From the NCBI GenBank assembly GCA_963969365.1, contig OZ017762.1:1364001-1428000 (forward strand): DNA of 64,000 bases. Reading direction: 5' to 3'. This DNA is from Asterochloris sp. CNOR1. Its lineage: Eukaryota; Chlorophyta; Trebouxiophyceae; Trebouxiales; Trebouxiaceae. Positions 1-64,000 of the stretch are shown here, piece after piece (the stretch's first letter is position 1; the number at the start of each line of letters is the position of its first letter). Under the pieces are notes generated by a model. The model saw only the letters and a list, made by a program, of their open reading frames with translations, made no database searches and was not told where the DNA came from. A program made the translations under genes and the position numbers.

Positions 1-61
1 GTGCCTGTGTGCGTCTGGGCTGGGCTGTGCTGGCCACGCTGGGCTGCCATCAGCTTTGACA

Positions 62-485
62 GCTCTACAGGTTTGTTGGCAGAGACGCTCTGTGCCACAA
101 CCTTGCAGGGCGCTTCAGCTATCAATGGGCTGCCTACGGCGCAGTCTGCCTGTTCATGAATCACCTGCTGCGCAGTCTGGCTGCTGTACATAAGCTGCTT
201 GGAGCTCCACAGCAGACCATTGCTGCTTGGGAGCTGACTTTCATCCGGCCTGCTTTTGCAGTCCTTGGCAGCTGACACTATATGTATGACTGACCACATG
301 TGCAGCAGCCTGCAGTAGATAGCCCTCCGGTCCCTGCAGGCAAGATCTACGCCAAGGCTAGGGCACTCTTTGTGGCTCCCAGCAGCCAGCGCCTCGCCAA
401 GGACGTTTTCAACTATCTCAAGGATGGAATGGTGATCAAGGCCCCAGCCGCTGGCGCTTCACCCATTACTACAGGCTCTATGTAG
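62..485 (+). CDS. Possible 3' exons of an unrecognised gene
   Basis: Two open stretches read on the plus strand. The first (about 70 to 273) encodes a mixed hydrophobic/basic segment with residues such as MNHLLRSLAAVHKLLGAP and then meets a stop. The second follows a good CTGCAG acceptor near 329 and encodes GKIYAKARALFVAP and onward to a stop at 483-485. No donor joins them cleanly and I recognise no family. They could be the last exons of a gene whose body lies before the window. The case rests only on the amino-acid composition and the acceptor, so it is weak. Confidence 0.25.
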
Positions 486-680
486 ACAATCAATGGTGGA
501 CCATAAAGATCTTGAGAATACTATTCAATTGATTGAGTTTGGCAGATTATTTGCCATTGGATTTGGTACTATTGCCTGTGCGGTGTTACGAAGCTGCACT
601 GGCTGCTGCAAAGCCAGACTGAAGAGCCAGCTCATGGGTCTGGTGAGCTTAACGCTGAAGCTGTTGCTGTCATTGCTTGT

Positions 681-3523: not shown

Positions 3524-6500
3524 ATGCACAGGAGGCAGGACAGACAGAGCCTTCTGAGCCCAGGCAGCCAGGGCCACAGGAACTCATCCCCTCATGGCTT
3601 TGCCATGCGCAAGTCCACAGCCAACCCTAAGCTGCAGGGCATGCTGGCACACAGGGATCGACAGTGTGAGGTGAGGTAGCATGCAGCTTTGAGATGCCTC
3701 CTGACAGCCAGGCTGCCCTTGCACAGCTTGCAACATGTGACATACTGCTGCTTACGGCATTGGTGAAGCACATTGGCCAAAGCAGGCCTCAACAAAAGAT
3801 GCTGCAGCAGTGTCACCCTGTTAAATGTTTTGGGGTCTCTCGTCTGCAGGACCTCCGCAGGCAGTTGGACGTTGCACATCACGGGAAGCAGCGGCTCAAG
3901 TCCCGGCTGGCAGAAGGTGCCTCATGTGTTGCATTCCAAATCTGCATGTGGCCGCAAGCACAGCCTCAGCTCTGTCCTGCCCGTGTTACGGCTGCCATCC
4001 CGCTCACAGACAGCAGCAGCATGGCACTATGAGCTGTGCATCAGCTGCACTGTTGGCTGTGGCAACCTGCATGCTTTTGCAAACATTTTTCGCTGCGTCA
4101 CTGCTGCCAGGTCAAGCTGCAGTCTGCAGAACGGCTGGACGTTGCAGTGATGCTGATGTTGCCTGCAGCCATCAGGCGCAACGAGAACCTGGTGCAACAG
4201 GTGCAGCAGGTGGACCGCCTGCAGCAGCAAAACTCTCAGCTGCAGCAGACCGTATGTGCCTTGAGGCAGCAGCTGAACAAGGAGACAATTCGGCACCAGC
4301 AGCAGGCCAGGGCAGCAGGGCAGCATGGGCGGGGGTTTGCAGAGATGCAGCTGCGGCATGGGGACGCCCAGCAGCAGGTGCGCCCATGTGCACCTCATGT
4401 CGCCGCAGCACAAATGTGCTGCCTCGGGGGGAGTGCCAGGAGCAATGAGTCTCATCATTGGATGAGGAGATGCAGCGCTGCACCCTCCAGCCACCAGCAG
4501 CATTCCAGGACTGCACGGCAGGGGTTTTGCAGTCATGCTCTTGCTGCACGTGACGCCCAGCAGCAAGTCACGTGACGCCCAGCAGCAGGACACGTGAAGG
4601 CCAGCAGCAGGTGGACACCTGCTTTTTGTGTTGCTGCTGCCACTTGCAGAGCGTCTAACTGCTGCTGCTGCGGCAAGACGCTCAGAACGGGCTTTGCACT
4701 CGTCACAGCTCCCAACCTGGCTGCACCACCATCCTTCGGAGTGCGGGAGCTTATGTTGTGCCTCCTCTGCAGGTCTCTGTGCTGCTGACAAGCCTGGCAG
4801 CGACTCAGCAACCCCAAAGAGGTGTGCAGGCATTCCTGCTGCAATACCTGCAGGTGTCGAGGCTGCACCACAAGTTGGCAGCAGCCCAGCCCCAGGTTTG
4901 CAGGCATCCCTGCCACCAATCCTGCAGGTGTCGACGCTGCACAACAACTTGGCAGCAGCCCAGCGCCAGCTGCGCAGCCTCCAGAGGGAGCTGGCTCAGC
5001 GGGAGCAGCACCTGCAGGCGCTGTCCAGCGACCACCAGCAGCTGCTGGCCAAGTACACCCAGCTGAGCGAGATCGTGGGGGAGGCACGCCTGCGGCTCAA
5101 TGCTGCGGCTGTCCTCACCAACAAGACGCTGACAGAGGACCATGCCAAGGTATTTTCAAGCACTGTTGTGAGGGGCCTGGATGGGGTATGATAGGTGCAC
5201 GGGCTCAAAGGGGGTCATCCAGGAAAAGTAGGGTCCTGTTGGCAGTCTCAAAGCAGTCGCCATATCAATCCTGGCAGGGATTCATGTCGAGGTGAGAGAG
5301 TTGTGATCGGCCTCAGCACTGATTGGGTTGGCACGTTGGGCCGGCATCTGAAAGCTGCAGTTTGACTTAGCTCTGCAAGCGTTAGGTCAAGACATATTCC
5401 ACAGTCACCAAACTGACTGCTCAGAGTCCCTGCTGAGGGCATCGGGGAGCAGCTGCAGAGGAGCTGGGCACGAGCTTGTGCAGTCCCTCAGACATGGCAG
5501 GTCCTCCACGGCTCACCCCTGCTCCTCGGCTGCAGCGGGCGATGCGCAAGTGGACCCAGGGGGAGCTGGGCACTGCCCTGCGCAACCTGAAGCAGCGGGT
5601 GCCCCACTTTGCGGGGGGCAGTGGGGGCCACAACAAGGAGAACCAGCAGGCCCCCACAGCAGCTGAGCACAGGCGGCGCACATTGCAGCATGGCGACGAG
5701 GTGAGAGGTCACGTGTGGCCGGGGATGCTGCCGTGTCATCTGCAACGAAGACCAGCACCAATGGTGGCTTGCATTGCACCACATCATGGTTATGGGCTGG
5801 CAGCCACAGCAATAGTGTTGCAGTGCATTGGGTGCGAGCACTGAGGTTTGCCCTTAAGGGTGCACACTGGCAGGGCACAGTGTATTGCAGCATGGAGCTC
5901 AGTACTTGGAGACAGGAGTGCAGCCATGCGCAAGGGCATGGGGCTGTGTGTAGTGCAGGAGTTCCCGCAGTTGCCAAGTGCAGGCAGCGTACAATGCAGC
6001 TGAAACTGGTGAGAGCTGGCAGTATCAGGCATAATGAGCTCTTTCAGTTGAAAGTGGGAAAGTGCATTTCGAAAGTGTTGCTCGGCTGAGCACTGGTGGC
6101 GCGGGTTGCACAGGCAAATAATTGGGGTGCTGGGCAGGAAGATGCTGGCTGGACTGTTTTCAAGCAGCAATGATATCTAGGACCAAGAGGGGCCTGCTAA
6201 GGAGCATCGGTGGTGTACAGCACAGCAATGAGGTGGGTCCTGGACAGCCGCCCTCAAAGCAGGCCTCCTAGCGCACTGTTATGGTTGTGGGCCAGGTGCC
6301 TGAAAGGGGATAATCTTCCTGCACACCGTTCTATACCTGATGCCTTGCCTCCGGTGCTACAGGCCTTTGCGCCGCTGGGTGGCAACAGGGCTCTGCAGCA
6401 GCAGCGCCAGCCTTCTGCCAGCAGGCAGCCCCTGCACCCGGCAGACTTTGGACAGCCTGCCCTGCAGCCAGGCTTCACAGACCACCTCAAGCCTGCAGCA

Positions 6501-7469
6501 GAGTGTGCATCAGAGCAGGAGCTGCGCAAGGTGGGTTAAGGGAACATGTCTGAGTTAAGATGACTGCAGCAAAAGTGTTGTGTGCCCCATGGTCTGTAAG
6601 GCAAGGCTCCTTTGCATGAGCCATCGGCTGTGTGTGCATCAGGGCAGGAGCTGCATGGGGTAGATAGACAGTGTCTCTGAATCATGCTGAAGGACAACAG
6701 TTGGAGTGTGCGCTTGTCTATGAGGCCTGGCTCCTCCACACAAGCCTGCAAACCCAGTCAAAGAGGAGCTGTGCAAGGTGGGGTAGCAGCGCCTCTGAGT
6801 TGCTGTCGGGCAGCTGAGAACTGCAGTGCTCCCTTTGAGGGGCCCGCTCTGCAGCCAGGCTTAACAGCCAGGTTTCAGGGCATGAAGGGTGCTTGCCTAG
6901 AAGCGCTTGTAAGCAGGGGAGTGAGAAAAGCTCAGTAGCATGACAGCTGACTGGGAAGGAGAGTCTGGTGCAGTTGCTTACAAGGTCATTTAGCAATGGA
7001 AAGATGGTGCTGGACTGGCTACAGATGCTTGCTGGTGTGGAGCATGGCATGCTTGATCAGCACAAATTCATCTTGACGCCGTTCAGGTAAGAGTCCCACA
7101 GCTCTCTGCTTGTACCTGTGAGTCAAGAATGCCTGAATGTCGCTGCTCCGCTGCTGCAGCAATACTTATACTCCTCCACTGATTGTTGTTGCTGTGCTGC
7201 AGGAAACTAGAGTGCTGCTGCAGCAGGCTGCCCAGCAAGAGGCTATTCAGCAGCACCAACAGCCAGCAGGGGGACTCATAGCAGGTATAGCTGAGCTAAC
7301 GGGGCTGCACTGGGGCCAGCAGAGGCCCAGCGTCTTCAGTACGGGGGTGGCACCAGACTGGTGGCCGCTGTCACAGGCAAGTCTTTGCTGGGACAGGGTT
7401 CAGACCTTGCAAAAGTTGAAGGCTGCGGAGATCATCAGTGGCGAGCTTATCGACGTAGGCTCCTGCTGA
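3524..7469 (+). CDS. Coiled-coil protein of unknown family
   Basis: The exon chain is mostly phase-checked: 3524-3670, 3850-3916, 4169-4377, 4928-5149, a possible 14-base microexon 5278-5291, 5484-5700 and 6363-6530. Likely later exons are 7025-7086 and a last one from about 7203 to the stop at 7467-7469. The N-terminus is basic and Ser-rich (MHRRQDRQSLLSPGSQG). The middle is a long Gln/Leu-rich coiled coil with segments such as LVQQVQQVDRLQQQNSQLQQ and LRSLQRELAQREQHLQALS. The C-terminal part is Pro/Gln-rich with a basic patch (RLQRAMRKWTQGELG). No catalytic motif is visible. A structural or cytoskeletal role is possible, but that is a guess from composition. The last two exons do not join in phase with the sites I chose, so the 3' end is tentative. 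Confidence 0.6.
4530..4890 (+). repeat. Ghost exon edges in intron 3 of the coiled-coil gene
   Basis: The end of exon 3 (GACGCCCAGCAGCAG then GTGCGC at 4378) is copied downstream at about 4520-4615, including repeated CACGTGACGCCCAGCAGCA blocks. The start of exon 4 (CCTGCAG then GTGTCGACGCTGCACAACAA at 4928) is copied upstream at about 4849-4900 (nearly identical: GTGTCGAGGCTGCACCACAA) and more decayed at about 4770-4815. One intron therefore carries ghosts of both its edges. Confidence 0.75.
6625..6800 (+). repeat. Two ghost copies of a donor edge
   Basis: Exon 6363-6530 ends GAGCAGGAGCTGCGCAAG then GTGGGTTAAG. Downstream copies lie at about 6640-6700 (GGGCAGGAGCTGCATGGGG) and 6750-6815 (AAAGAGGAGCTGTGCAAGG then TGGGGTAGC). 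Similarity continues into the following intron sequence (the run of GTCTGAGTTAAGATGACTGC compared with CTCTGAGTTGCTGTCGGGC). Each copy therefore contains both exon end and intron start. Confidence 0.7.
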
Positions 7470-7872: not shown

Positions 7873-10586
7873 TCAGGTTGACTTCCTGTCAGGGATTTCG
7901 CTCTCAAATACACGGCACTGCTGTCGCAGCCACTCCTGATGCGATATCATGGCAGAGGTCAGGTGACGCCCACTGCGACCCATGATGAGCAGGGGAGCCT
8001 GCATAGGTAGAGCACATCGAGACTGTGCTAGCAAGGCGCTCGATGAGCTGATGGGGCAGTGCACATCATGGCAGGGTGGCAGAGTGCACATGCTGAGCTT
8101 ACATCACATCAATGCAAGGTAAATGGTGAAGCTTAAGTCTGAAACTCATGTATTCAGGCTGTGATGCCCAGGAGACACTGCTTCTGCAGTGGCGGTCTGC
8201 TATGCACATGTTGCAACAATGCCTGCAGTGTGTTGCGGCTGGCAGAGCAATCTCCCCCACCGCTTACCAGCATATAGATGCCATTGATGACCACAAAGTA
8301 GGTCTGGGCAGTCCAGTCCGGGCTCAGAAAGATAAAGCCTGTAGGGGCACCCCAGACCCGGCTTGCAGCTGGCAGAGCAGTCGTGGCAAATCACTCGGCA
8401 GTAACCTTTGCACAACGACGCAGCATACAGGCAAGTGCATGACTCGGCAGGCGTCAGACACCAGAAACTGCAAAGACTGCATCACCTGACAGGGCCATGG
8501 TCCCAACATAGACCATCATACCCAGCATCTGGCTCAGGCTGACGGCAAGGGCCACGATGTCAACCCACGGCTGCTGCAGGAAACGGGCAGGACCCATGCT
8601 AGTGATGTGCTGAGCACACAAGAGATTTTGGAGCCGTGCAGCACTGTGCACTGCTTGAAGACGTAGTCATGCCCCGGAAGTCCACAGCTGCATCGCAGGT
8701 ACAGGTTCAGCGTAGGCAATGATATGTCATGTCTGTGGCGCTTGCAGAGTGTCGGCAAGCTGCTGCAGAGACGACGGCATGCCAACAGCAATGTGGTACG
8801 AACGCGAAAATTTCCCATGATGCAGCACTGATCGCAGACGCAAGCATGACTGCTCTCCCTGCCTGGCTGAGCACATCACACTGGCACAGGGCCCCTTTGT
8901 AAGACAGGCACTGGTCTGGGGCATAGTCAGGCTCAGGTGCCCATTAGTGGGGCATTTGCATCCAACTCTGCATTTGAGTCCTATTTCCAGTCCAGCCAGG
9001 GGTGACTTCCAGCCATGCTGCGCATGACGCACAAGAGCCAGTGGGTCAGGGAGAGCGTTTGCAGCTGAGAGATGCCTTGGCTCACTGCGTTGCTCAGCAT
9101 GCCCCACAAGAGATGCCTTGGCTCACTGCGTCATTCAGCATGCCCCACAAGAGATGGCTTAACTCACTGTGTCATTCAGCATGCCCCACAAGAGATGTCC
9201 TGGCTCACTGCATTGCTCAGCATGCCCCACAAGAGGTGCCTTGGCTCACTGCATTGCTCAGCATGTTGCACAAGAGATGTTTTGGCTCACTGCGTCATTT
9301 AGCATGCCCCACAAGATGATGAAGCACAGGGGGCCTTCCAATACAGCTGTGATGGTCTCCTGCGCCAGCATGAGTGCATCACGGCTGGCGAAGCGAGAGT
9401 CTGCCCTTGCATACTCCTTCCCTGCAGGACAGAAGAGAAGGTGCATCTTGAGCGCAGCACGCTGGCATGGACTTGCCTGCCATACCTTCTGGCCTTGCAG
9501 GCCATCTGAGACCAGCAGGTCTCTTGCAAAGCTGCCTGCAGTCTGCAGCTGCTTGCAGCCAGCGAAATGTCCCCCCAAACAGCATGGTGTGCATGAGATG
9601 TAGGCCAAGCAAATGAAGAGGCACTTGCACAGCACAGATATCACTAGTCCACACCTGTGCCACACTGTTCTGCCAAGGTGGCCATTCCTGCAAAGTGTTA
9701 ACCAGGCAAGAACAGGCACTCACACAGCTCGTAGATCCACATGTGAGCCTGCTTATTCTGCATCAGCTTTGGAAACCAGAGCCAGGTGCCCTCCAGCAAT
9801 ATGTGGACAAAGCCCTGTAGCAGCCAAGCAAGATGAGAGGACAAGCGTGTGATTCTGCAGCCCGCCGGCCCATATATGCTGTAAGGAACTGCAACACATG
9901 TGAAGGGAAGCTCTGGCAGGCATGACATTGGCAGCCCAGCAGCATTCCCACCGTCCATGCAAACCAAACAAAAACTGCCCTGCAAAAGTTGGTGACAATT
10001 CAGAAAAGATGTCACAAGCAATAGCAAAGTGCAGCCCAGGCGGTGCCAGAGCTCCTGGTGTGCTTGAAATGTGCAAACATCAACATGCCACGTGCACCAA
10101 TGGCAGGGCTGAAAATTGGTGCAGACCTGCTGGCAATGTCAGGGCTGCCCAGTCTGCCTGCAGCAGTGTTTAGTCAGTGTGGGGACATGGCCGTTGTGCA
10201 GTGGCCTACGGTGGGGCTTGAGAAAGGAGGCAGAAAAGGTTTCCTGCCTGTGCTAGATGTGCCAGACAGTGCAGTCCCTTTCCTCCCTCTGACCACACCT
10301 CCGTGCAGAGCAGCTACAAGGGCACATCATTTGTTGAGGTGTTGACAGCTGAGCTTGATGTCTGTGTGCATGCAGAGCAACTACAGCCTTCATACAATGT
10401 GATCAGCATCGAACCTGAGACGCGCCATGCAATGGCCACCACAGCCATTGAGCATGCAGCAAAGATCAGGCCGATTGCAAAGGGGCCCAAGCGGGGCGGG
10501 TGGTAGCCAGGCACATCTGCAGTGGAGGGATAGTAAGGGTGGCTGTCCTGCTGCATGGCGCTCAGGTTGAAGAGGTCTTGTGCCAC
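7873..10586 (-). CDS. Sterol C8-C7 isomerase, emopamil-binding protein family
   Basis: Resolved exons: 10586-10415, 9814-9724, 9421-9291, 8573-8486, 8338-8268, 7998-7873. All later junctions are in phase. The protein starts MAQDLF and soon shows HPYYPST before the first membrane helix, as in EBP/HYD1 enzymes. The next exon has GFVHILLEG, matching the catalytic His and Glu of the second helix. The following exon reads WKEYARADSRF and then QETITAVLEGPL, the third signature with the essential Glu and Thr. Two more membrane segments follow (VDIVALAVSLSQMLGMMVY and TYFVVINGIYMLAPLLI). The tail ends DRKST. These enzymes move the sterol double bond from C8 to C7 in the endoplasmic reticulum. One short exon between 10415 and 9814 is not resolved. 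The donor after exon 9421-9291 sits in a 41-bp tandem array. Confidence 0.87.
9069..9314 (-). repeat. Six-unit 41-bp tandem array built from an exon-intron junction
   Basis: Six units of exactly 41 bases: 9069-9109, 9110-9150, 9151-9191, 9192-9232, 9233-9273, 9274-9314. On the minus strand every unit contains a version of TTGTGGGGCATGCTGAGCAA followed by TGCA or CGCA and GTGAGCC. The unit at 9274-9314 is the real end of the sterol isomerase exon (residues ILWGMLNDA) with its donor at 9290. The other five are copies inside the intron. All keep the GTGAGCC donor. As 41 is not a multiple of three, use of the next donor would shift the frame. Confidence 0.92.
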
Positions 10587-34578: not shown

Positions 34579-35055
34579 TCCACAAGGTCATCCAGTGCTG
34601 CTGAGGCATTGACTGCACCCCTGGTTCCACAGGATGTGGGGTGGCCTGCATTGAGGTGGTGCTGGACCTTGGTCTGATGTGTAGTACAGGAATGTCAAGC
34701 ACTATACCTGCCCATTATCTCAGATTTTAAGGCCTGAGTTCTGGACTTAAGAACTGACAGCTGAGGGATGAACATGGTGAGTAGGCTGCTTCCGTCATCC
34801 AGCTGTGAAGATTAAGGGTAAGCAGCAGAACTCTTCTTGCACTCTGACAAGTCAGCTTTGATACATCAGGGGGCATGTTGCAGGGAGGGATCTGAAGCAG
34901 GTCTCTGGTCAGGCAGCCCGGATGAGCAACGAGGAGGGCCATTCAGCCAGAGCGCTCAGGGCAGACATCTCTGCCAGGAAGTCGTGGCACTGCTTGTTGA
35001 TCTTTGCTGGCACTGCTGGCCTGGGAGCAGGCCAGACAATCGACAAGAAGCGCTG
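34579..35055. other. Intergenic upstream of the unknown gene
   Basis: About 475 bases between the unknown minus-strand frame and the WBP11 stop. It contains the WBP11 3' UTR and possibly the promoter of the unknown gene. Nothing specific is seen. Confidence 0.35.
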
Positions 35056-45733: not shown

Positions 45734-48687
<2,954 letters not shown>

Positions 48688-50376: not shown

Positions 50377-53300
50377 ATGAAGCGCCAGTCCAGCCTTGTG
50401 AGGCAGCTCTCAAGGTGAGCTGGCACGCTGGTGACATGCTGCTGGAGGATGCTGTGCTGCACTCCCTGAAGGAGAGCTTGCTGCAAAGGCCTCTGGAGTT
50501 CGGTGGCCAGGCACGATATGTGAGATGCCAAGTGAGCCCGCAATCACAGGATGCTGCCGCCATGAAACCTTGTGTAGGCAGCATTAGGCATGGCGGTGTG
50601 CTGCATGTTTGAAGCAGTGCTGAGCCTCCGAGGCTGCAACCCCAGGACCGCAGGCAGCCGCACAACAGCGCCTTGCATCTGCAAGCATGCTTGAATGGAA
50701 GCGAAGCGCACCTGAATGAAGCCTTCTCAGGCTTGCTATGTGTTTTCCTGCAGAATCCTGCGGCCGTCTGTGGGAGCTGTCAGTGGAAAGCTGCCTGCAG
50801 TGAATGGAGCAAGGTCTGGCATGCGCTCAGGTGCGCATTGCTGCTGGCCTCCACTGGGATGTCTTCGTGGGAACTGCATCCCGCAGCTACCTGGTCTCAT
50901 ATGCAACCTATTCATCAAGGCATCCTGTGCTGCACTGAGTGACCCTCCTTCCTATTTGGAGCCTGGCACAACTCTCCACCTGTCAGAGATACCTCTGCGC
51001 CTGCGCCCTGCTCATTGATTGCAAACGACTTCTGGATGTGATGTGCCTGTTGAACAGCTGATCAGCCTGGCGTGATGGACAGAGGCGTTGCACAGCCAAG
51101 ATTTGCCCTTGGTGCTCCATCAAGGGCCTGCTGTTGGACTGCCTTGGCGAATAGAGGCTTGAAGGCGGCCTTTTTGCATCTGGCAGCATGCCACACCTGC
51201 AGTTACAAATTCCCCTGTGCAGGGCTGGGAGGCCTCCCCTGGCGGACAGAGGCACTTGATGAAGCTCTGTTACATTTGGATAGCTGGAGCGGGTGGTTTG
51301 GGAGGACCAATGGGCGGGATGTCATCAGAACCCTGATCGCAGAAGCATCGCCGTCAGAGCTGAACCACATGGTGCGCCTCCAATGTAGTGTGGGTGCAGA
51401 GAGACCCTGCAGGAGCCAGTCTGCAGGTTGAGACAGACCTTGTGACGCCATGCAAGGCTAAAGTGGACAGACTCTCGTCATTGCAGCTAGCACACTCTGC
51501 GATGTCAAGGCTGCAGCTTTAATCCATGCCGGCAAAGCTGCTTGGCATGCTTGTGCAGCCTCACAAGCCCCTTTGCAGCGCACTCCTGAAGCCTGCACAT
51601 GACCGGCAGCCCCAGCAGGCTTTGCTGCCACAGTGGCTTGTCTGTGCCCTGCAGATTGCCAACAGCAACATGGAGCGCTTCTGGCGCCTATGCAATGCGG
51701 ATGTGAGGGAGGTCCTGCAGCCCAGGCTGCCAGAGCTGCGCCCCTCAGCTTGTGAGGCAATGATCTCCGGCCTGCAAAAACTGTGAGTTCGCTCATGCAC
51801 TGCGCTGCAATGCTGTCCTGGACTCAAATTGCAAGTGTACATGGACAACCCTGGCAGCAACCTGCTGGCTGCTCCTCAGCCCTCCAGGCAATCATCTCTG
51901 GCCTGCAGAAGTGGGTGTTGAGAGAAGAATCCTCGGCCCTGCTCCTTAGCCCGATGCCATGTAGACACAAGGCAGCCTGCATAGCAAGACCCTGCTGGCT
52001 GAACGTTCAGCCTGGGAGGTTGCGGGTCACTGGCTCGCAACAGGATTGTTTTGATGCTGTCAGAAGCCCTGGGTCTTGTGGCAGCCTCCAGCACAGGGGC
52101 AGGCACAGAGGCCTAGCTCCAATTCCGCAATGCTGCCTGGTTTATGAAGGTGCATCTTCCTGCACAGTGTCTGGGCCTGCTGGGGCATGGGCTATGCAGC
52201 AGCGGCGCCCTCCTGCAGCGACCTGCACTCAAGCTTGCATGGTGCTGGCTGTTTTGCGCAGGGCTTCCTGCTGCGCAATGTGGGCCTGCCGGGGGGGTCA
52301 GCTGTGCTGCAGACGTAGTTCCTGCAGCAAAGTGTACTCAATCTCACACTGGTGTTGGTCTTGTTGTGCAGGGGCATCTTTCATGTGCTGCAGAGACATT
52401 TCCTGTAGGACATGAAGTGTGCTCCCACATTGGTGCCGGCTATGTTGTGCAGGGGCATCTTCCAGCGCAACCTAGGCCTGCGCGGATGGTGGGTGGACTG
52501 GGTACGTGACATCTTCTTCAGCATGCATGGCAAGGACCTCACCGCTCTCAAAAATGCGCTGGACGATGGAGGGGATGCCCACAACATCCACCAGCTGCTG
52601 TACACTGACATCCTGGTGAGAAATGATTTCATGATGGTTTTGTGAGCTGTCAGGCACCTGCTGCTGGTGCCGGTGCAGCACACACCTCGGCTTGTGCTCG
52701 GCTGATGTCATCCAGCTGCTTGCAGGACAACCATGTGAGGGAGGAACTGCTGACCCACATTGCCCGCGAGGCAGCAGCCGTCAGAGAGGCCGGCTGGCGC
52801 GCCCTCAAAGTGGTCTCGGATATCGACGACACTTTCCTCTGTAGTGGCGGACACTTCCCCTCTGGTGAGCTTCAGCTGCTGCCTGTTTAGTGAGGTTACC
52901 TACAGGAGCATGTACGCCCATTCTCATCTCTAGTTGTAGGGTGGCAGTTGTCTTTGTTGACTGTCAACTGATGTCCTGCGGGCAGGTGCCAGACTTGCAC
53001 AGCGCTATACCCCTGCAGGCGTCGATAAAAGCTTCCCCAAGGGGACCATCTACCCTGGCGTGATTGCTCTTTACCGGGCCCTGACAGAGGCCAAGCACTA
53101 CAGAAAGATGCATCGCATCACCAGCCGCCAGCAGCTGTTCAATGGCAATGGCAACCTCAGCAGCCGTGGCGGTGTGATACCAGCCTCAGAGCTCAGCACC
53201 GCCATGGAGGAGGTGAGTTTGCTTGGGTTTGTTTAATGCATATCAACAAGCTGCTGTATGCAAGCGACAGACAAGTCACAGCAGAAGTGGCCTTGTGCCG

Positions 53301-56300
53301 GCAATCTCTCAGCCACTTGCACTCTGCAGCTGTGGCCCCAGGATTCTGCTCAGCTGGCCTGCACAGTGACTGCCTGCATAAATCTTTCAAAGCCATGTTG
53401 GCAAGCCCTTTTGGCCGAGCACGCTGCGTCTCATATCTGCTTTGGGAACCTCTTTGAAGCCCCTGTGTGAGCCCTGAGCAAGCTCTGTCTGCAATGTGCC
53501 TCCCTGCAAGCTTTGACTTGCCTGCTGACATGCAGTTGGCCGGCAGGGGGCCACCTGCAGGTCATCGCTGTCGTCCGGGAGGTGTGGCAGTGATCAGCTC
53601 ACCTCACTTCACACCGCCTTGCACCCTCAACAACCCTCATCATGGCATGCAGGGCGCCTGCTGTGTGGTAACCCTGGCAGTGTTCAGCGAAAGTGCCCTG
53701 CACCTGCCCCGTGGCGCAACGCTCAGGAAGGGTGCAGCTCAGTCACCCAAAGTGAACTAGCCAAAAAGTGCTGCACCTTTGCAGGTTGCTGCTGTACTGC
53801 GCGCCTGGGGGCCCACTGGCTTGGCATGTCAAATCTGTAGGTGCATAAGTGTCCATTGCTGTCTGCAGGCCATCTGCTGAGCAGTCAACCTCGCCAGCGA
53901 CCAGCTGATAACTGCCTGCAGGCAGTGCCTGATCCAAACCTTTGGGTCTCCCCAGCGCCGGAGTCCCTCCACTCCTGGTCAGCACCTGCACGTCATAAGC
54001 CCTCTCAAACCTGCCTGCAGGTTACTTGCTGCGCAGTCGACCCCGGGAGTGACCAGCTGACTGCTGTGCACCTGCCCCCTAGTGCCACGCTGGAGGAGGC
54101 AGCCCAGAGGCTGGGCCAGGAGCTCACCGATGAGGACGCCGCTGTGCAGCAGTTCTGGGTCAACCTAGAGTCTGGGGACGACCTCCCGCGCCTGCCCTAC
54201 GGCGACCCCATCTTTGAGATCAACCTCGTACTGCTGTCAGCGCGGCCAGGGGGCAAGAGGTGAGCATGCTGGCAGCCTTAGACTGCATGCGCGCTCATGC
54301 TATGAGGCACATTATGGCATCAGCATGTAGCTCTGGCTGAGGCCATTGTTGAGGCGGTCGCGCTCATGACATCAGTGTACATCATCATGACATCAGTCTG
54401 GGGGGAAAGCCCTTGGTGGCGGGACGTGCAGGCCTCAAGTTCTGCCTCATGGTGCCCTCATGAGCAGCTGTGCCATGAGCATCATGGCTCAGATCTTTGC
54501 GTGACTTTTGTGTGGACAATTGAATCCTATGGTGTTCCAGGGCTGTAAGAGCAACGAAAGGGGTTCCAGCATTAGTTTGATCTCCAATGCTGCAGCGTGT
54601 GCTTTGCTAGCGTATTGGCCTGCTTCATTGTTCACAACTCTGCAAGCCTGACATGCCCCTGATTTAACAGGGAGCCTCTTAATTCAGCTTCAAGGACCCA
54701 CTCTCCTGGGGCAGTGGCTTGCTGTGCGTCTGACTTAAGGATGTTTGCAGGAGCTTGTTGCCTCTCATACGCACCTGAGGGCATTTTGAAATGTATGTTG
54801 ACCCACCCTGCAGGGGTGGTGGCCTGCTAACTCGCCTGACGTATGGACGCTTCCAAGAGCTGGTTGCTTCCGGGCACATGCACGCGCTGCCTACCCTCCT
54901 GCCAGGACAGTGGCACGCTGGGCTCAAGGCCGTGAAGAGTATTCTCAGAAGAATTTTCATCAAGAGGGATCGCGCATGGAAGGCTTACACCAAGGTGCGC
55001 TGCTGGCATGGGGATGTGTGTTGCCTGTTTAATGGCACCCTGTTCCTGCAGCGTCAGCAGACTTCAGCTGCGCTCCAGTGGTCAGGCAGATGCTATGTCA
55101 GCCTTCCTGTTGTATGTCCAAGACCAGTCAGCCCGTGCCTGCAGGCATGGGCACCGGTGGGCATGCACAAGTACCACTCCTTCATCGAGTATGTGCAGCT
55201 GTACCCTGAGTATGACTTCATCATGCTGGGGGACAACGGGCAGGGGGACGCCATGTGTGCAGACCGCGTGATCATGAAAGCAGGCAAGCTGGGGGGAGGG
55301 GCATGTGGGGCAATGCCTGTGAAGTTAGTGAGGCAGGGCATGGGGCATATATTCCTCAGCAGTGGTCAGCACTGACTGGCATTTTGGCCTTCGTGGGCAC
55401 TTGGCGGCCATGTCTGAGCATGGGCGAGATGAGAGTCGTCCAGAACATGCCGTATAAAAAACTTGCTGACAATACACAGGGGGACGTACTACGTACTGAC
55501 CACGCAACATCGTAACAAACAACCTGTGCAGTCTGGAATGAAGAGCAGCAACATGTGGCCGGTGTGTGCCCTACGAGTAAAGTGTTGAGCTGCCCTGGGA
55601 TGTTTGGCATGCATTGTGTGGGGCAGCTTGCACTGCTGCACAGCATGCTGCACATGACACCTGTGTGCAAATCTCGTGGGGCTACCGAGTGCGCTCGCAT
55701 GCGGCATGGTGGGGCAGTCGGGGCTGCTAGGCTGCAGACCTGGGTTTGCAGCTGGCAGGGCACTGGGCATTGATGGCTGTGCCTGTCCTGAAGGCTGCTG
55801 CAGCTGACCCATTTGCGCCTGATGCATGCTGTCTCAAATGGCCAGAGCACCCTGAAGGCTGCTTCAAACTGTTGTGGCGTGTCTCCAGTGCCCTGACTCT
55901 TGAGACAGACCTCGTGTGATGCTCTGCAGCAGATCAGCATGGCCTGATGCAAGACCACCCTGGCGTGAACATGAGCGGCAACGTTCCTCACTTCCATGGA
56001 GCCCTGATTCACATGGTCCAAGATCAAAAGCACACCCTCAGGTGAGCTTGCTGTGCTGTGTCAGGCTGCCACCTGCACAGTGCTGCACAGGGAGGTCGGG
56101 TGGCAATTTGCTGCAGGGTACAGGGTACTTGACCTGCCTGTGAGGGGACACTGGGCAGATAGGCAGCGCTGCAGACACTGTGAGGCGAGTGCAAGTTGGA
56201 GAGCAGAAGCGGACGCTCTGCTGGCTTGGTTGAGGGCTGCCTATGGCTGCTCCCTAGATTCACCCTACGCATGAACGGCTTAAGTTGTGGCGCTGCCTGA

Positions 56301-57902
56301 CAGCCATGATGTCAATCTGGAATATCATGGATCTCATAGCAGACCTTGGCGGACTGCAAAGAGTGGCATCTGCCATTGCACCTGCATTCACGCCTCTGCG
56401 GAGTCTTGCACCGATCTCTGGGCTTGTGCATGCTGCTGCAAGTCCAACACCAACCCCTGCAGGGCGTGAAGTTTGACGACCCCAGCGAGATGAACTCCCT
56501 GCTGGACCGCTGCTGCAGTCTTGCTGCCCTTGCTTCGCATTGCTTGCGTACAGGCATGTGGCCAGCCCCATTGAGAAAGTGCCCTTCTAAGCTCGGGCAA
56601 ACAAGCGCTGTCTCCCTCTGGCACCTTGAGCTGCGCCTGCTGCTAGGCAGTATGAACCCCGGAGAGAGCTTCACTTTGAGCAGCTCGGCCAACAACAAAT
56701 CGCACCTCCTGCAGGGCGCAGGAAAGGCCTGGCTGTTGCCTTGTTTCGTGTGCCATCACTGCAAACAAATGACAACAGAATAAGCACCGACCTGTGCCTC
56801 CACCTGCAGGGCTGTGGAAAGTGACGACCCCTCTGAGAATGACGCCCTTCTGAGCGCAGCCGAGCAGGGCCAGTCTACCCATGGGCGCTTCCAGTACTTC
56901 AACACCTTTGTGCACGCCGCACTCATTGTGTACGAGCTGGGCCTGCTGGATCTAGTCTCTGTCAAATATGTGAGTCCCATAGCAGGCTGCACAGCAACAC
57001 AGCGACCCTGACAAGTTATGTTCTGCACTCGCAGCGGTGCATCGCGTCTACATCTGGATAAAGCAGGGGCACGCAGCATTGATGTTGGCTGGTGCTGCTC
57101 TCATTTGCTGGGAGGCAGCAGCGACATGTCGTAAAACCAGGTCCTGGATGCTTCTGCGTGCCAGTCCTCTATGTCTCCTCAAGTCATGGCGGCACAGGTG
57201 AGGTAGGACCCCTCCAGCTACTGTGAGCTGCCTTTGCAGCATCTGCAAGGATGTTGACCAGTAATTGATGCAGTGCTGCTGCATATCAACCCAGGCTGGT
57301 GATTGAGGTGTTGGCACAGCATTGGAGGGGTTCTTCTTGGGGCGCTTGTGGGCAGATCTGCATGGATGTCAACCAGTAGACACTTGGCGATGCAAGTCAT
57401 GCCAGGCGACCAGTGATGGGCAGCTTCACCCTTCCTCAAGGCATTGATGCTGCTGCAGGTTGCCATGGAGGCAGTGGAGGACTTCATGCGCCTGCAAGCC
57501 CGTGCCCGGCTGGGGCAGCAAGGATTCCGCCAGTGGCAGAAGCAGCACGCCTACAAGATCCAGGAGGTCAGTTTTGTGGTCCTCCCAGGCGACACAAGAA
57601 AGACACACCAAGCTTATGTTGCAGCACGGACTGTCAAGGCTGCTGCCTTGCTCCAGATGCGCTTGTAGGAGTCACCAAGTTTCAGGCTAGCCGCCTGACT
57701 GCACTGCCCTGCACTGGCTTGCCTGTCACTTTGACTGCACGGGGCAAACACAGCAATGATCATTGACATTTGAGACACCTGTGTCCTGCAGAGCCTGAAT
57801 CATGACATCACAGAATTGAACCAGTTACTGCCAGAGGGAGAGCGGCTCGAGCTGTTGGATATGGTGCAGCCAACTGCACCGCGGCAGAAACGTTCTGTGT
57901 GA
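50377..57902 (+). CDS. APP1/DUF2183-type phosphatidate phosphatase-like protein
   Basis: Exons that fit phase: 50377-50414 (start, tentative), 51223-51371, 51655-51782, 52453-52615, 52726-52864, 53019-53212, 54021-54259, 54814-54994, 55145-55283, one ending 56041, 56810-56969, 57459-57566, 57792-57902. The HAD catalytic motif is VVSDIDDTFLCSGG. Next come GTIYPGVIALYRAL, NLVLLSARPGG, HALPTLLPGQW, IEYVQLYPEYDFIMLGDNGQ then GD, and a C-terminal block TFVHAALIVYELGLLDLVSV. This order is that of the App1/DUF2183 family. The fungal member dephosphorylates phosphatidate at actin patches. The N-terminal half is Trp-rich and conserved-looking (GLRGWWVDWVRDIFF) but of unknown role. Two extra exons (53019-53212 and 54021-54259) lengthen the span between DIDDT and SARP. 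Exon 55145-55283 seems to use a GC donor. Confidence 0.82.
51855..52405 (+). repeat. Ghost edges in the phosphatase gene, first cluster
   Basis: The end of exon 51655-51782 (GAGGCAATGATCTCCGGCCT then GCAAAAACT/GTGAG) is repeated at about 51880-51925 (CAGGCAATCATCTCTGGCCT then GCAGAAGTGGGTG). The start of exon 52453 (GTGCAG then GGGCATCTTCCAGCGCAACC) is echoed upstream at about 52255-52300 (GCGCAGGGCTTCCTGCTGCG then CAATGTGGGCCTG) and 52365-52410. Confidence 0.75.
53640..53925 (+). repeat. Ghost copies of exon 54021-54259 start
   Basis: The true exon begins after CTGCAG with residues VTCCAVDPGSDQLTAVHLPP. Upstream copies lie at about 53648-53740 (GACCVVTLAVFSESALHLPR then GATLRKGAA, still protein-like), 53780-53830 (acceptor plus a short match) and 53864-53925 (CATCTGCTGAGCAGTCAACC). 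The first copy aligns over about 30 codons, so it may once have been a whole exon. Confidence 0.75.
56450..56700 (+). repeat. Ghost copies of exon 56810-56969 start
   Basis: The real exon starts CTGCAGGGCTGTGGAAAGTG and encodes VESDDPSENDALL. At 56458-56515 the sequence CTGCAGGGCGTGAAGTTTGA encodes VKFDDPSEMNSLLDRC, an obvious copy. A more decayed copy near 56645-56700 keeps GAGAGCTTCACTTTGAGCAG. Both are on the intron side. Confidence 0.75.
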
Positions 57903-58166: not shown

Positions 58167-58868
58167 CTACATCACTTTCTGTCGCTGCTTTCTCTGATAC
58201 AAAAGCCACCAGCCTGCCTGGAGGCTCGCTGCGGCAACAAATGTGGTGGAGAGCATTGCAGTAGCTGCTTTCTGCCACCATTCTGGCAGCAGGTGCTTCA
58301 TTGCCCAGTGGATGCTCAGCAAGATGCTGGCATTCCAAAGCACAAAGACTGCACAGGTCCCTGCAAGACTGTGCTCTAAATTGATGGGGTGGCTTGCTGC
58401 CCTGGCCCGAGCATAGGCCATGATGTTTGGAGGGATGAGCCACACAGCGAGAGCAATCAGGCCTGCATGTGGCAGGCGCAGAGAGCCAGACTTCATCAGC
58501 AGAGGTCCATGCTGCAAGGGGCAGGGTTGACCCTGGTGTGCACCTGTCGCCCCACCTGGCAGCAACAATATGTCGTCCAGGAAGCCTATCACAGGCAGAA
58601 AGTCTGGAATCAAGTCAATCGCGCTGCAATTAATAGTACGGCATGCTAAACTGTGTCTGCCGAAGTGTTGATCTGCTGCTGGTCACCTCAGAGCGTATGT
58701 GAGGGCCACAGCAGCAATCAGCTTGGGCCAGATGCTGACTTCTGGATGTTGCACAGCGTAATACAGGGCGAGCACGGATTGCTTGAGCCTTTTAGCTGCT
58801 CCTCTGATACGTTGCACCAAGTTCTCAGGGGCCCCCATTGTGCGCCTGGTCTGGGGCTGCCCCTGCAA
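58167..58868 (-). CDS. DUF1232 (YkvA-like) membrane protein
   Basis: Three exons join in phase: 58868-58687, 58623-58556 and 58462-58167. The spliced protein reads KLIAAVALTYALSAIDLIPD then FLPVIGFLDDILLLPG and LIALAVWLIPPNIMAYARAR. This is the DUF1232 signature (short helix, Asp-Leu-Ile-Pro-Asp, Leu-Asp-Asp, then a Leu-Ile-Pro-Pro box). Two further hydrophobic helices follow (CAVFVLWNASILLSI and LSTTFVAAASLQAGWWLLY) with a basic C-terminus, RKQRQKVM. Family members are small membrane proteins of unknown function. Start is M1 at 58868 or M11 at 58838. The long open frame on the opposite strand is its shadow. Confidence 0.85.
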
Positions 58869-58899
58869 ACAAGCAGCACCCCCTCAGCCAGGTCGCTGA

Positions 58900-59400
58900 T
58901 GTCATGGTGTATGGGGGCGGAGGCTGATGTCCACCTGCAGAGCACTGCCAGCCAGAGCCAGATATGGTCGACCAAGCGTAGACTGCTGCTCAGACAGACT
59001 CCATTGCCAGCTTCAGCTATCGGGTCGGCCTTTGCCAACAGCGACCTCAGGGCACTATCACTCGCCACTGATGGGAACTGCGCCTTGCGCAGCATGGAAG
59101 TCCAGACATCTTCCTCTCAAGCACCACACGCTTACCAGCTGCAACTAGCAGAGCGCCTATCTCCCTCAAGGTCAGTGGAGGTTCCAACTCTGCCGCCCTC
59201 GCCGCTGCCTCAAGCGTCTCCTGCGTCATCCACTGCACCTCTATCCCCAGTGTATCGCCTTCTGCATAGCCGTACTGCAGCATCACCCTGGAGAGCCGCT
59301 GCCTCCTGTCAGGTGGCGACCAGTCCTGGCAATCAGCTCCTGGATCGTGACCATGACTGGCCTGCAGCAGGAGCACGACATCTACTGTCCCCACCAGCTG
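58900..59400 (-). CDS. Possible exons of an unrecognised gene
   Basis: One piece near 59270-59140 reads YGYAEGDTLGIEVQWMTQET and on to LREIGALLVAAG, with a GTAAGC donor. A second near 59060-58940 reads SALRSLLAKADPIAEAGNGV and on to DHIWLWLAVLC. Both look protein-like. I could not establish start, stop or family. They could be upstream exons of the DUF1232 gene or a separate gene. Confidence 0.35.
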
Positions 59401-60800
59401 AACCAGTGTTCTATCTGCCCAAGCAACTGAGGACACAGACGGCCCCATGGCCGGCGCTAGTCAGGCGCAATCATGGGGCGCTTGCACACACTGTCACTCA
59501 CTGCACATTGCAAATGACACATGTCGTGAAGCGTGAAACAGGAGACAGGACACACAGGGCCTCCAGGCGTCCAGGGCCTGCAGAGAGGCCACCTTGTGAG
59601 CGCGCAACACCTTTTCTGCAGGATACCAGTGCAGTCAGATCAGCAAGTGTAGTCAGACGGATCAGTGCAGTCAGATTGATCAGTGATGACAGACTGAGCG
59701 AGCTGTGGAGCATCTATCGTGTCCATACTCTGCAAGATGTGCATACAGTATTAAGACTGTCCAGTCAGTGGACTCCTGAACCAAAATGCATTCTGATGCC
59801 TCACAGGAGTGCCCCAAGAAGTTGCTGAGGCCCTCAGCCTCTTGAGTGGCTGCTACAAAGCAGCCCCCTATGGTGCAGACCTCCACTCACACCGAGAGGA
59901 ACAGGCAGGAGACCTGACGGCCTGCTCCTGCACGGAAAGGTCTGTGTGGTGCTGCTGGCCTGGCTACTGATCAGCTCCTGCGGAAGCACCGCTGCCTGCA
60001 GTACAGGACATGCTGCATGCCGCCAGAACTTTGGGCTCCCAGGCATTTGCAGCGGAAGCAACGTGTGCGGTGACATGAAAGCTTCTGCACAAGCGTCAGG
60101 TGCTTGCTGTGCAGGCACATACATGCAGCATCAGGTCAGGTGTTGCACCTTCACTTGTAGAGCGTCGCAAGGCCTCTCAGTCTAAAAGACAGGCACGCCT
60201 GTCGCGACGGGTGGTTGTGGTCGCGCACCGTGTCCCAGGACCCTCCGATGATGATTTAAATTTAAAGTCCGTAGCCTCAATGCACGGGCATAGGACTATG
60301 ATCATTTCATCCCACCAATGAACTTTGCTGAAGGTGTAGGGGTACAAAAAGAAGCAGTACAGGCATATCAAGCAGGTCACTGTACTTGGCTGGTAAAGAG
60401 GGAGCCGGCGCTCATAGCAGGCCTTGGCACTGTGCTGGGCTTCATCACCACGTTGGACTGCTAGCTGAGGTTGCTGCCCGAAATGCAAACACCCTGGATC
60501 CTGTATGGCGCAGGGGGGGGCTCAGCCCCCCTGACTGGCTTGCCACGCCCTCTCAGCTCGTAGACTTCGCAGTCATGAGAGAGTTATGCTTGGGTATGAC
60601 TGTGACCAGCAGTCTTCCCCTCGCAGGGCACCAGGCTCCAAGGCGGCACACCCCAAGCAACAACTCAGCATGGGGACCTTAGGGGAAGACAATCATGTGA
60701 TGAGTCTAGCGCATTGCTATGAAATTGGGGCTCTAATCAGCAGCTGGTGAGCTGGGGACACATCACGGCACATAGAGGGGTCACCCAGGGTGTCTGTTCC
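59401..60800. other. No clear gene; 3' flank of the LINE
   Basis: Downstream of the LINE stop (minus strand) this holds its 3' UTR. I could not find the poly-A or short-repeat tail or a target-site duplication, so the element's end is unknown. A short plus-strand frame near 60160-60320 (basic, SKRQARLSRRVVVVAHRVPG) has no supporting splice sites. A G-run/C-run hairpin lies at 60513-60531. Confidence 0.4.
60513..60531. repeat. G/C-run hairpin
   Basis: A run of eight G, then CTCAG, then six C can fold into a short very stable stem. On the minus strand it lies in the presumed 3' UTR of the LINE. Its role is unknown. Confidence 0.5.
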
Positions 60801-63800
60801 TCATTTAGGCCCAGATGTGCCCCCAGTGATGCCCAGCATATTTGCGTGCTGGAGCAGTGCTGCCCTGATGTATGTGGCCACTCGGCTTGGTGGTTGTTCA
60901 AACAGCGTTGCCAACGACTGCTGCTGCTCCGCAAACAGGTGGCTGTGAGCAGACCGGAGGTCTGCAAGTCCTGGGCAGTGTAGCAGGATATGGCTTTCAT
61001 CCTCAATCTCATTCGGTGACCCACAGATTCGGCATGTCCGGTCCTCTCGCTTGAGCTGGGGCAATAGGTATCGCCCAGTCTGTACGCGCAGCTGGTGGCT
61101 GCTGCACCTGATGCTGGCATAGGCTCTGCGTAGCCTGAAGCCTCTGATCCTGGTCAGGTATGTCTGCATGGCATAGGCCGTGTTGGGACCCCGCATCTGC
61201 ATGTAGGTGGCCACGGTGGCGGCCTGGCAGTCCCTGAAGCGCTGCTCATGCTGTTCCTTGCCAGGGGCTGTCTCTGCGCTGCCATGTGCCTGTAGTGCAC
61301 AGAAGGGGGCCAAGGAGAGGTCGCGGTACAGCGGCAGGTAGCAGACGCCGTCATACATAGCCCATAGCAGGGGCTCCTTCTGAAGCTTCGGCTTGAGGTC
61401 CCAAATGCGTTGTCTGAACCTGTCCACTTGCCGCTGCCAATGCACTGCCAGGGGATATCTGCCAAACTCAGCAAGTGCAATCAGACTGTGTGTGTGGCAG
61501 TGGATGCCAAGCAATCTGCGCAAAAATTGTGCATGCAGAGACTCAAGCTGCGCTGTGGCTTGTGTGCCTGCTCTGTGGTCCCAGAACCAGACCTCACAGC
61601 CATAGCTCAATATGGGCAGCACCAAGGCATCAAACAACTTGCAGATGCGGCGCGGGCACGTCAAACTGATCTGTGCACAGCGCCTGAGCATGTTGTTCAT
61701 GGTTTTACGCGCAGCTTCCAGGTGCTCGCCAAGGGATTTGGCAAAGCCCTCCTTGGTGGCTTCAAACCACAGGCCCAGGTACTTGAATGAATCCGAGCGC
61801 GTCAGGGGGTGCCCACTGTATGTGAAGGTGCTGCATTCTTGGCGCTGTGTCTCAAACACCACCACTTCCGTCTTGACCAAACTGACTCTGAGCCGCCTGT
61901 TTTCACAGAATATCTGTAAAGCATTCAGCAATCGTTGCAGTCCTTCTTCACTTGTGCTCATGAGCACCAAATCGTCTGCGAAGAGCAGCAGCGGCACATC
62001 ATGAAACATGAGCGTGGGTGCATGGTTTCCTTTAACTTTGCGCATGACCTTGTCCAGCACATCGATCAGCAGTCCAAAGAGGAGTGGGCTGAGGGGGCTG
62101 CCTTGCTGCACTCCTTGCAGGCACCTGAATGCCTCAGATATGCCCCCTCCAGCCCTGACCGCTGCTGAGTCTTGGGCGTACATGCTTTGCAGGCAGCTCA
62201 TGAAGTGTCCACACACCCCCAGGTTTTGTAGGACAGCCCACAGCACCCCGCGATCCACTGTGTCAAAGGCCTTCTCAAAATCAACAAAGCAGCAGAAAAG
62301 CTTGCTGTTGTGCCGCCTATATTTTCTTACCAGAATGTTCAGTGTGCTCAGCTGTCCAGCAGTGCTGTGGCCCCTGCGGAAGCCAGCCTGCGGTGGTGCT
62401 CTGAGATTGAGCGCTTCCGCCCACCGGGTCATGCGCTGCTCCATCACTGTGGCAAATAGCTTGGCCAGCACAGGAACGACCGTGATTGGCCGGTAGCTGT
62501 TCATGTTGAGAGGATCCCTCCGTTTTCCCTTGTATACTGCAGTGACTAGGCCAGTGCTGAGCGACGTGGGATAGGTCCCCTTGAGCATGCTGGTGAACAG
62601 CTTGGCTAGGCAGTGTTGCATGTGGAATGGCCCATGCTTCAGCAGCTCTGCACTCATGCCATCGATGCCAGCTGCTTTGCCAGCACTCAGTTTGCGCAGA
62701 CCAGCCCGCACATCAGAAATGGTGCAGTCAGCATTCAGGAAAGCATCTGTGCCAATATGTACTCCTGTGATGGTGTCTTCAGGGAGCAGCTTTGGAACGG
62801 CAGCAGATGCGGGATGGCTGCCCAGCACCTTCTGCATGTGCGCAGCCTGGATGGCACTGGACAGCGGGCACCCAGGGCGCCTGCGCCACCCTGCTATGCG
62901 ATGAAGATCCGGCAATGAGAGGTGATCCATGCGGCGCATCTCGTTGGTCAGAAACTGTCGATATTTGCGGCGTCGGACAGCCCGGTGCCTGCATCTTAAA
63001 CTGTTAGCAGCAGCGTGGTGGGCAGTCAGCACAGGAGCCCTTGCTGCTGCTTTCCATTCACGCCATGAGGCCCAGCATTCTGCATCAAACCACACCGGAA
63101 ACTGGCGGGGTTTCTGGCCCCTTCCCTTCTTCAGGGCAAAAGTCTGCACAGCAGCGTCAGCCAAGCATCGTGTCATAGTCAGGACCCCAGCCTCTGGGTC
63201 TGCACAGGCCGCATCTAGCTGCTGCTGGTCTGCAGCACACAGAAAATGCTGCCAGTACTGCTCCTCCCTTTCGGCCTCAAACTTCACAGCAGGCACTTGC
63301 AGACACCCTGCCTTTGAGTGGGCTGGCTGGTCAGCCTGGCCATTGTAGGCTGGGGGCTCCTGTGCAGCAGGCAGCCTGAACCGTGCCATCACAGGGTGGT
63401 GGTCTGAGCAGCTCATGTATGGTGTGCTTACTTTCTGCAGGACTTCAAGCCGCTCTGCCCAGGGGTAGAGGGCTGACGAGGCCATGTGGTAGTCCAGCGT
63501 GGTGCGCACCACACGCTTGCGGCCGCGCATGAAGGTGGTCCTGCCAGTTGGGTCGCCATGGACTCTGCCATTGAGAATGAGCAGGGAATTGTCCTTGCAG
63601 AACTGCAGTTGCTGGCGACCTCTCCTGTCTACTGCATGGGGGCACTCATTTCTTCTTTCTGGCACGTGCTCTGGCAGTTCATCTAGAGCCTGTACAGCAT
63701 CAGGGATTTCAGGGCCCTCCAGCATCACATGGTCTGGCAAGGTCCCCGTGTGGGCATTGGTGTCCCCACACACCCAGAACTGAACACCTCTGGGCAACTC

Positions 63801-64000
63801 TTGAGAGAGTAATCTCATGTCTGCAGATAAATCCTTGAAAGTGGACAGATCTTTGTGCTTGTGGCCTGGGGGCATGTAGCATGTGGCAAAGGCAACGTGC
63901 TGAGGGTGATCACCCCCCAGGCGAACATGCAGCCACAGGTAAGTGCCATCTGGAGCACATTTCCAAACAGAACAGCGGTCAGCCCACTCGCGCTTTATGT
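60801..64000 (-). mobile_element. LINE ORF2: endonuclease, reverse transcriptase, zinc knuckle (5' partial)
   Basis: A single frame runs from the window edge to the stop at 60801-60803 without interruption, over 1,060 codons. The APE-type endonuclease shows GDTNAHTG and SDHHPVMARF. The reverse transcriptase blocks are present in order: YRPITVVPVLAKLFATVMEQ, QAGFRRGHSTAGQ, FVDFEKAFDTVDR, GVQQGSPLSPLLFGLLIDVL and LLLFADDLVLMS, with the catalytic Asp pair intact. A C-terminal zf-RVT-like finger reads CRICGSPNEIEDESHILLHC. The build is that of a non-LTR retrotransposon of L1-like type. Chlorella Zepp is a known algal relative in kind, though I cannot assign the clade. Translation upstream of the first Met stays open to the edge, so the ORF continues outside. 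An intact frame suggests a young copy. It is also the only long intron-free gene here. Confidence 0.93.

Follow-up and report, generated by a model that had tools for sequence, protein, structure and literature searches.

Roughly one in four introns in a stretch of green-algal DNA carries old, decayed direct copies of the edge of an adjoining exon. We analysed 64,000 nucleotides of Asterochloris sp. CNOR1 (assembly GCA_963969365.1, contig OZ017762.1, positions 1,364,001 to 1,428,000 of the forward strand), hereafter the window, a single 64-kb stretch of ~57% GC on which, together with its predicted gene models, all results rest. At p<=0.01, at least one exon-edge copy was found at 35 of 198 testable exon-intron junctions, where ~2 are expected, and in 29 of 106 predicted introns. 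These local copies are real, as the original prediction, made from the letters of the same DNA, had proposed. The explanation we favour, with a probability of roughly two in three, is that many old direct tandem duplications occurred without being aimed at any site, and that the copies of exon edges have stayed visible because the exon conserves their parent.

Exon-edge copies in adjacent introns

Genes were predicted with a hidden Markov model (HMM) trained on the window itself and seeded with eleven peptides from long open reading frames; positions 1-24000 and 45961-47100 were also inspected by eye, and the remainder was treated by script. The model returned 130 exons, 120 introns and 15.4 kb of coding sequence, with sharp splice signals (donor CAG|GTG.G, acceptor TGCAG|G). 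Reassigning to intron the 14 predicted exons shorter than 15 bp left 106 introns, with 99 donors and 99 acceptors that could be tested. Each exon edge served as a query against its own adjacent intron, and length-matched pieces of introns more than 4 kb away provided the null. With 60-base queries and a cut-off of p<=0.005, 16 of 103 donors and 14 of 105 acceptors were positive, for ~1 expected overall. Longer queries at p<=0.0034 gave 18/99 donors and 12/99 acceptors, i.e., 30 junctions for an expectation of 0.7. Single copies were called at p<=0.01.

A number of controls bear on this excess. First, the reverse-complemented query matched the same intron in only 2 of 208 cases (Fisher test against 30/208, p=9e-8). 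Second, the intron on the wrong side of the exon was positive once in 62 tests for acceptor edges searched downstream and once in 62 for donor edges searched upstream (Fisher p=6e-5). The claim that acceptor copies lie upstream of the true exon and donor copies downstream of it thus holds (2/124 on the wrong side), an order that largely follows from the geometry of tandem duplication. Third, exon middles matched the adjacent intron in 6 of 113 cases (Fisher against 30/208, p=0.015), so that junctions exceed mid-exon positions, a comparison that had been put forward as a way to overturn the original prediction. Fourth, 60-mers from deep within introns matched the remainder of their own intron in 4 of 84 cases (Fisher p=0.025).

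The excess is also seen without gene models. Because duplications with small offsets escape self-comparison by BLAST, as did the 74-bp one at 4820, we added a diagonal scan for ungapped direct matches at offsets of 10-1009 and scores >=17; it found 67 local direct matches and none in either of two far sets of equal size. BLAST itself gave 42 direct matches within 1 kb at score >=20, for 0.57 expected from far pairs. For matches with offsets of 40-500 bp, the median offset is 155 (5-95%, 46-371). Inverted matches are also locally in excess, at 8.5 with score >=20 against the far direct expectation of 0.57, perhaps owing to palindromic CTGCAG words.

Several of the predicted proteins have homologues. 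Six of ten predicted chains, and then two more, were searched in Pfam, which supports Thi4 (E=1.2e-88), GDPD (8.1e-39), Wbp11 (1.2e-13) and Chloroa_b-bind (1.2e-7), and a further predicted gene matches EXPERA/EBP (E=3.8e-15); APP1_cat (7.6e-6) and ATPase_2 (1.2e-6) stayed under the Pfam cut-off. The Thi4 prediction aligns with PDB 1rp0 over 272 residues (E=1e-105). Several model chains merge genes, and the HMM mis-spliced one Thi4 exon (region 46455-46980), the conserved exon lying by eye at ~46686-46743. Within the stretches delimited by Pfam or PDB homology, 7 of 38 tests were positive at p<=0.01. Viral contigs were also searched with Thi4 in the hope of a related algal contig, and none turned up.

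The positive junctions carry one to four copies each, 49 in total, with a single copy at 25 of the 35; two of these junctions, 4853 and 4927, derive from one and the same 74-bp duplication. The original prediction spoke of one to six copies; the array at 9068-9321 has six units, five of them intronic beyond the parent, each with the exon end and a GTGAG donor. The earlier count of at least seven affected genes is plausible. To call the introns filled with such copies was too strong: the spans from parent to farthest copy add up to 7,082 of 39,547 intron bp, and 77 of the 106 introns have no detectable exon-edge copy at p<=0.01.

The copies are direct, and 37 of the 49 alignments span the exon-intron junction, the other 12 being restricted to the edge, which agrees with the proposed tandem duplication of DNA across the junction. 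Adjacent copies whose unit length equals their offset occur at 4820, 6490, 9068 and 34913, and most others are too decayed for full units to be recognised. At 34913-35030 and 35027-35144 the full 114-bp unit can be aligned (a 118-bp match), and at donor 6530 the unit is nearly complete (gapped match 6490-6622 / 6619-6746). Head-to-tail arrays of short units, as in minisatellites, were found at 9068-9321 and at 4547-4611, the latter a 22-bp array detected by Tandem Repeats Finder (TRF) that reiterates the last bases of the forward-strand copy 4492-4568. An 18-bp tandem array also lies at 59627-59697, within a predicted long intron in which no exon copy was detected.

How untargeted duplication would produce edge copies

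The process that we favour would run as follows. During a past period, the genome would have fixed many short direct tandem duplications, with no need for them to be aimed at particular sites. Those falling within exons would mostly have been purged, selection presumably acting as a filter. A duplication across one exon edge would leave the exon whole, with the first copy remaining exonic at a donor and the last copy at an acceptor. The remaining unit would become intron, such that each event adds one unit to the intron, along with a redundant splice site. This copy would then drift neutrally while the exon preserves the parent sequence. Copies of exon edges would outlast duplicates lying wholly within introns in detectability, because the former diverge from their parent by d and the latter from each other by ~2d. 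The data show the copies and their direct orientation, their adjacency at several loci, their neutral decay, the retention of splice dinucleotides and a link with longer introns; selection as the filter, the use of the outer splice sites, a slowing of duplication, and an underlying replication or repair mechanism are inferred.

Where aligned, the splice dinucleotides are retained in 23 of 33 copies (GT in 14/19 donor copies, AG in 9/14 acceptor copies), in line with the claim that the duplications leave many decoy splice sites; going by the gene models, splicing would presumably be retained between the outer ones. Introns that carry copies are longer than the others (median 499 bp, n=26, vs 264.5 bp, n=80; p=3e-4), which is partly expected because long introns have more room for copies. 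The idea that introns have been enlarged in this way is supported by these lengths, but not as an ongoing process: young copies are scarce, with two above 86% identity.

Where duplications fall

The distribution of matches over exons and introns bears on the choice between the favoured explanation and its strongest rival. BLAST gave 53 local matches: 33 span a predicted junction, where rotations average 17.8, and five are intron-intron, where they average 17.4. The diagonal scan gave 85 merged matches, of which 63 involve exons (at least one partner holds exon or junction sequence, exon-exon pairs being counted apart), 16 are intron-intron, four intergenic, and two exon-exon. Several of the intron-intron duplicates sit in introns without detected exon copies.

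We simulated the evolution of the window under duplication, substitution and deletion, with small indels in all but the first series, parameters chosen by hand, and two or three seeds each. Without duplication, the later simulations yielded only two or three matches involving exons, and at most one positive junction. Unbiased duplication at d=0.6-0.3 gave 57-63 exon-involving and 18-20 intron-intron matches in the earlier runs with an exon rate of 0.1, and 62-64 and 28-36 in the later runs. The four later runs with old unbiased duplication spanned 52-64 and 28-50, respectively, and two later runs with old duplication at junctions only gave 79-91 and 17-20. The latter, scaled down, would also fit the data, with a ratio rather better than that of the unbiased runs. 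Steady, ongoing unbiased duplication was rejected: in the later runs it produced 72-84 intron-intron matches, against 16 observed, and 10-16 young copies, against two, and the earlier series likewise gave an excess of intron-intron matches. The simulations thus show that untargeted duplication is nearly sufficient, not that it is the unique solution, and the near-fit obtains only if duplication ceased ~0.25-0.3 substitutions per site ago.

The intron flank past the splice signal is mostly dissimilar between copies wherever it was not itself selected by the alignment, in keeping with drift of both intron copies: it was similar in 7/32 cases at p<=0.05 (7/37 as measured with the later simulations), compared with 6-11 of 38-50 in the old unbiased runs and 11-16 of 34-43 under ongoing unbiased duplication.

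Several results weigh against untargeted duplication as the source of the copies. First, the earlier runs at an exon rate of 0.3 yield too few exon-involving matches (39-45, with 22-23 intron-intron). Second, the 16 intron-intron matches observed fall below the range of the old unbiased later runs, which also overshoot the numbers of positive junctions (40-48 vs 30) and of copy-bearing introns (35-42 vs 26). Third, within alignments the intron side is as similar (0.80-0.83) as the exon side (0.76), and past the splice signal it is still 0.79-0.80 similar over 270 bases, while old-burst runs give 0.65-0.69 for the intron side and 0.72-0.76 for the exon side; the 9068 array and conservation of the splice signals account for some of this similarity. 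Fourth, third codon positions diverge less than expected if the synonymous sites of the parent are free. Finally, the model requires a halt of duplication for which it offers no cause.

The rival that gains most from these points holds that duplication was concentrated at exon-intron junctions, e.g., by breaks linked to transcription or splicing, and that introns grow mainly by duplication of their edges. The excess of junction-crossing BLAST matches and the deficit of intron-intron ones relative to the rotation means speak for it, as does the observed proportion of the two classes of match, 16 intron-intron to 63 exon-involving, which is nearer to that of the junction-only old runs (17/79, 20/91) than to that of the old unbiased later runs (28/64 to 50/52). 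Yet conservation of the exon parent alone yields much of the pattern in simulations, and duplicates away from exons are present both in introns and in intergenic DNA. It is because such duplications occur that we prefer the unbiased model, and the ratio of the later runs together with the high intron-side similarity led us to lower our confidence in it slightly and to raise that in targeting, which we nevertheless regard as unlikely. Slightly more doubtful still is the fuller version, in which a transcription- or splicing-linked process favours junction duplication and much of intron length consists of edge units, grown outward from the splice sites as a reservoir of decoys. The junction-specific action implied by the original prediction is therefore not established, edge copies being easier to see because their exon parent is conserved.

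Decay of the copies

The copies could instead be alternative exons, decaying or working, left by tandem exon duplication and used as mutually exclusive exons or alternative splice sites. The retained splice dinucleotides are compatible with this, and the HMM did model some copies as exons (13056-13089, 13632-13699). The second of these predicted exons covers part of the Chloroa_b-bind copy at 13659-13740, whose junction was thereby missed as a positive, and is probably wrong. The copies are, however, mostly partial edges. Mismatches with the parent are nearly even over codon positions 1 to 3 (0.238, 0.206, 0.274; ratio 1.23, 1.05-1.44), and in the 42 of 49 copies with >=21 aligned exon bases the frame is shifted by gaps in 30 and interrupted by an in-frame stop in five, gap placement being partly uncertain. 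Since the codon-position ratio is so low and frame shifts so frequent, the copies are not constrained coding duplicates. The alignment of Thi4 with 1rp0 also runs uninterrupted, with no insertion, at the joint beside the Thi4 copy. By these measures the copies decay like neutral DNA and not as working alternative exons. Copies that were spliced alternative exons throughout had been named in advance as fatal to the original prediction, and we hold alternative exons to be very improbable. The implied divergence of the copies is ~0.24-0.34, an estimate biased low because older copies escape detection.

Equally improbable, in our judgement, is an origin of the copies other than exact tandem duplication, whether templated insertion in the course of break repair or copying that was error-prone from the start. 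The scarcity of copies above 86% identity, the many copies shorter than their offset, and the intron sides being as similar as the exon sides inside alignments would all suit such an origin. It is at odds with the excess of direct over reverse orientation, with the intact tandem units at some loci, and with intron flanks that, where not selected by the alignment, are mostly dissimilar. Chance similarity can be dismissed: the splice signals are uniform and CTGCAG words are visibly frequent in the DNA, but the far-intron and far-diagonal controls rule out CAG/CTG-rich low-complexity composition and a common splice consensus as the cause.

Relation to known modes of intron evolution

The predicted forward-strand intron 4854-4927 is exactly one unit of a 74-bp tandem duplication and reads CAG|GTGTCGA across either end. 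The surroundings of its donor and acceptor are identical in 53 of 70 columns, whereas the maximum among 11,130 mismatched pairs is 35. If really spliced, it may represent an intron gained through AGGT duplication. The same signature, sought in the remaining 105 predicted introns, was found in none above the 99.9% level. As an account of the whole phenomenon, AGGT intron gain was rejected, as it fits only one of the 106 predicted introns.

The gain of new introns by tandem duplication of an exonic segment bearing AGGT is established (PMC3443670, PMC4974935, and, as cited there, Rogers 1989, Hellsten 2011, Gao and Lynch 2009). As those papers present it, the two processes share the principle that duplication and redundancy of splice sites alter gene structure while leaving the protein unchanged, and intron 4854-4927 fits this; there, an exonic unit gives rise to a new intron, whereas here units often lie beside one edge of an existing intron. 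For the RNA-dependent RNA polymerase (RdRp) gene of potato, PMC4974935 describes one recent tandem duplication across an intron-exon boundary that took along the 3' signals of the intron and the beginning of the exon, and that produced a new intron by recruiting a donor. The boundary-crossing tandem duplication is alike; in contrast to that single event, the window holds 49 old copies at 35 junctions, at donors and acceptors, some of them repeated, which lengthen introns.

Tandem exon duplication likewise places exon-derived copies next to their parent. Compared with the tandem and mutually exclusive exons treated in PMC5740500, mostly edges are copied here, and they drift without coding constraint. 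Introners, as portrayed in PMC9860276, add intron DNA in bulk by copying themselves into many genes. Intron DNA is also added in bulk here, but the similarity is only local: within the window, introner-like sharing between genes was not seen, with no diagonal match at score >=17 in the two far sets (1000 diagonals) and BLAST far matches numbering four at score >=22 and none at >=24.

Core-Reinhardtinia algae have introns that lack the usual short peak and measure 198-343 bp, the driver of this length being likely ancient and left open in PMC8226300. The median intron of the window, 268 bp in the 120-intron models or 295.5 bp in the 106-intron models, falls inside this range, and a duplication mechanism is not among the proposals in the portion of that paper at hand. 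Neither mass enlargement of introns by junction-crossing duplication nor such a density of it was found in the literature searched, a weak absence given that subscription papers mostly lay outside it. What appears new here is the density, and the enlargement of introns, by boundary-crossing duplication; single such events were already known.

These observations bear on why green-algal introns are long. Exon-edge copies are datable fossils, each recording one intron-enlarging event whose parent is preserved in the exon, so that a genome alone suffices to measure how fast introns grew, when, and with what bias. They also provide a natural test of how the spliceosome chooses among near-identical sites, as with the five GTGAG decoys behind one EXPERA/EBP donor.

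Copy-bearing loci and other genes

Table 1. Loci at which exon edges and their copies were aligned, in window coordinates.
Feature	Span	Strand	Evidence
Donor edge, parent 4294-4379; copy 4492-4568	4294-4568	+	score 35
74-bp tandem duplication holding predicted intron 4854-4927	4820-4977	+	TRF
Donor edge 6530; copies 6619-6654, 6736-6800; 6833-6870 from deeper in the exon	6482-6870	+	
EXPERA/EBP exon end (exon 9291-9421) and array	9068-9321	-	TRF 41 bp, 6.2 units; four copies above threshold
Chloroa_b-bind acceptor edge 13775; copy 13659-13740	13659-13851	+	BLAST, Pfam; p=0.017
Chloroa_b-bind donor edge 13998; copies 14034-14129, 14229-14281	13930-14281	+	scores 29.5, 19
Acceptor edge 18944-19000; copy 19031-19087	18944-19087	-	score 23
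Donor edge 20233-20340; copy 20039-20142	20039-20340	-	score 25
Donor edge 22198-22283; copies 21947-22031, 22059-22103	21947-22283	-	scores 27.5, 17.5
Acceptor edge; copies 25710-25740, 25807-25846	25594-25846	-	scores 21.5, 30
Donor edge 35059-35144; copy 34945-35030	34913-35144	-	score 56
Wbp11 donor edge 39480-39563; copy 39302-39385	39302-39563	-	score 26, Pfam
Thi4 donor edge 47103; copy 47153-47222	47059-47222	+	score 20
Acceptor edge 52452; copies 52128-52190, 52240-52329, 52347-52383	52128-52523	+	scores 20, 28, 23
Acceptor edge 54020; copies 53645-53742, 53859-53929	53645-54107	+	scores 33, 29
Acceptor edge 54813; copy 54695-54764	54695-54870	+	score 31.5
Acceptor edge 56809; copies 56456-56513, 56553-56621	56456-56884	+	scores 24, 21

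Two further predicted genes stand apart from the copies. The 402-residue protein predicted at 30530-33049 on the forward strand has, by eye, what we take to be a motif of tyrosine recombinases; a Pfam search of it gave nothing credible (best E=0.13). The gene predicted at 58828-63540 on the reverse strand had no match in Pfam and is weakly similar, over residues 154-261, to LINE-1 ORF2, R2 and another reverse transcriptase in PDB (E=0.003-0.03); it is probably a decayed retrotransposon.

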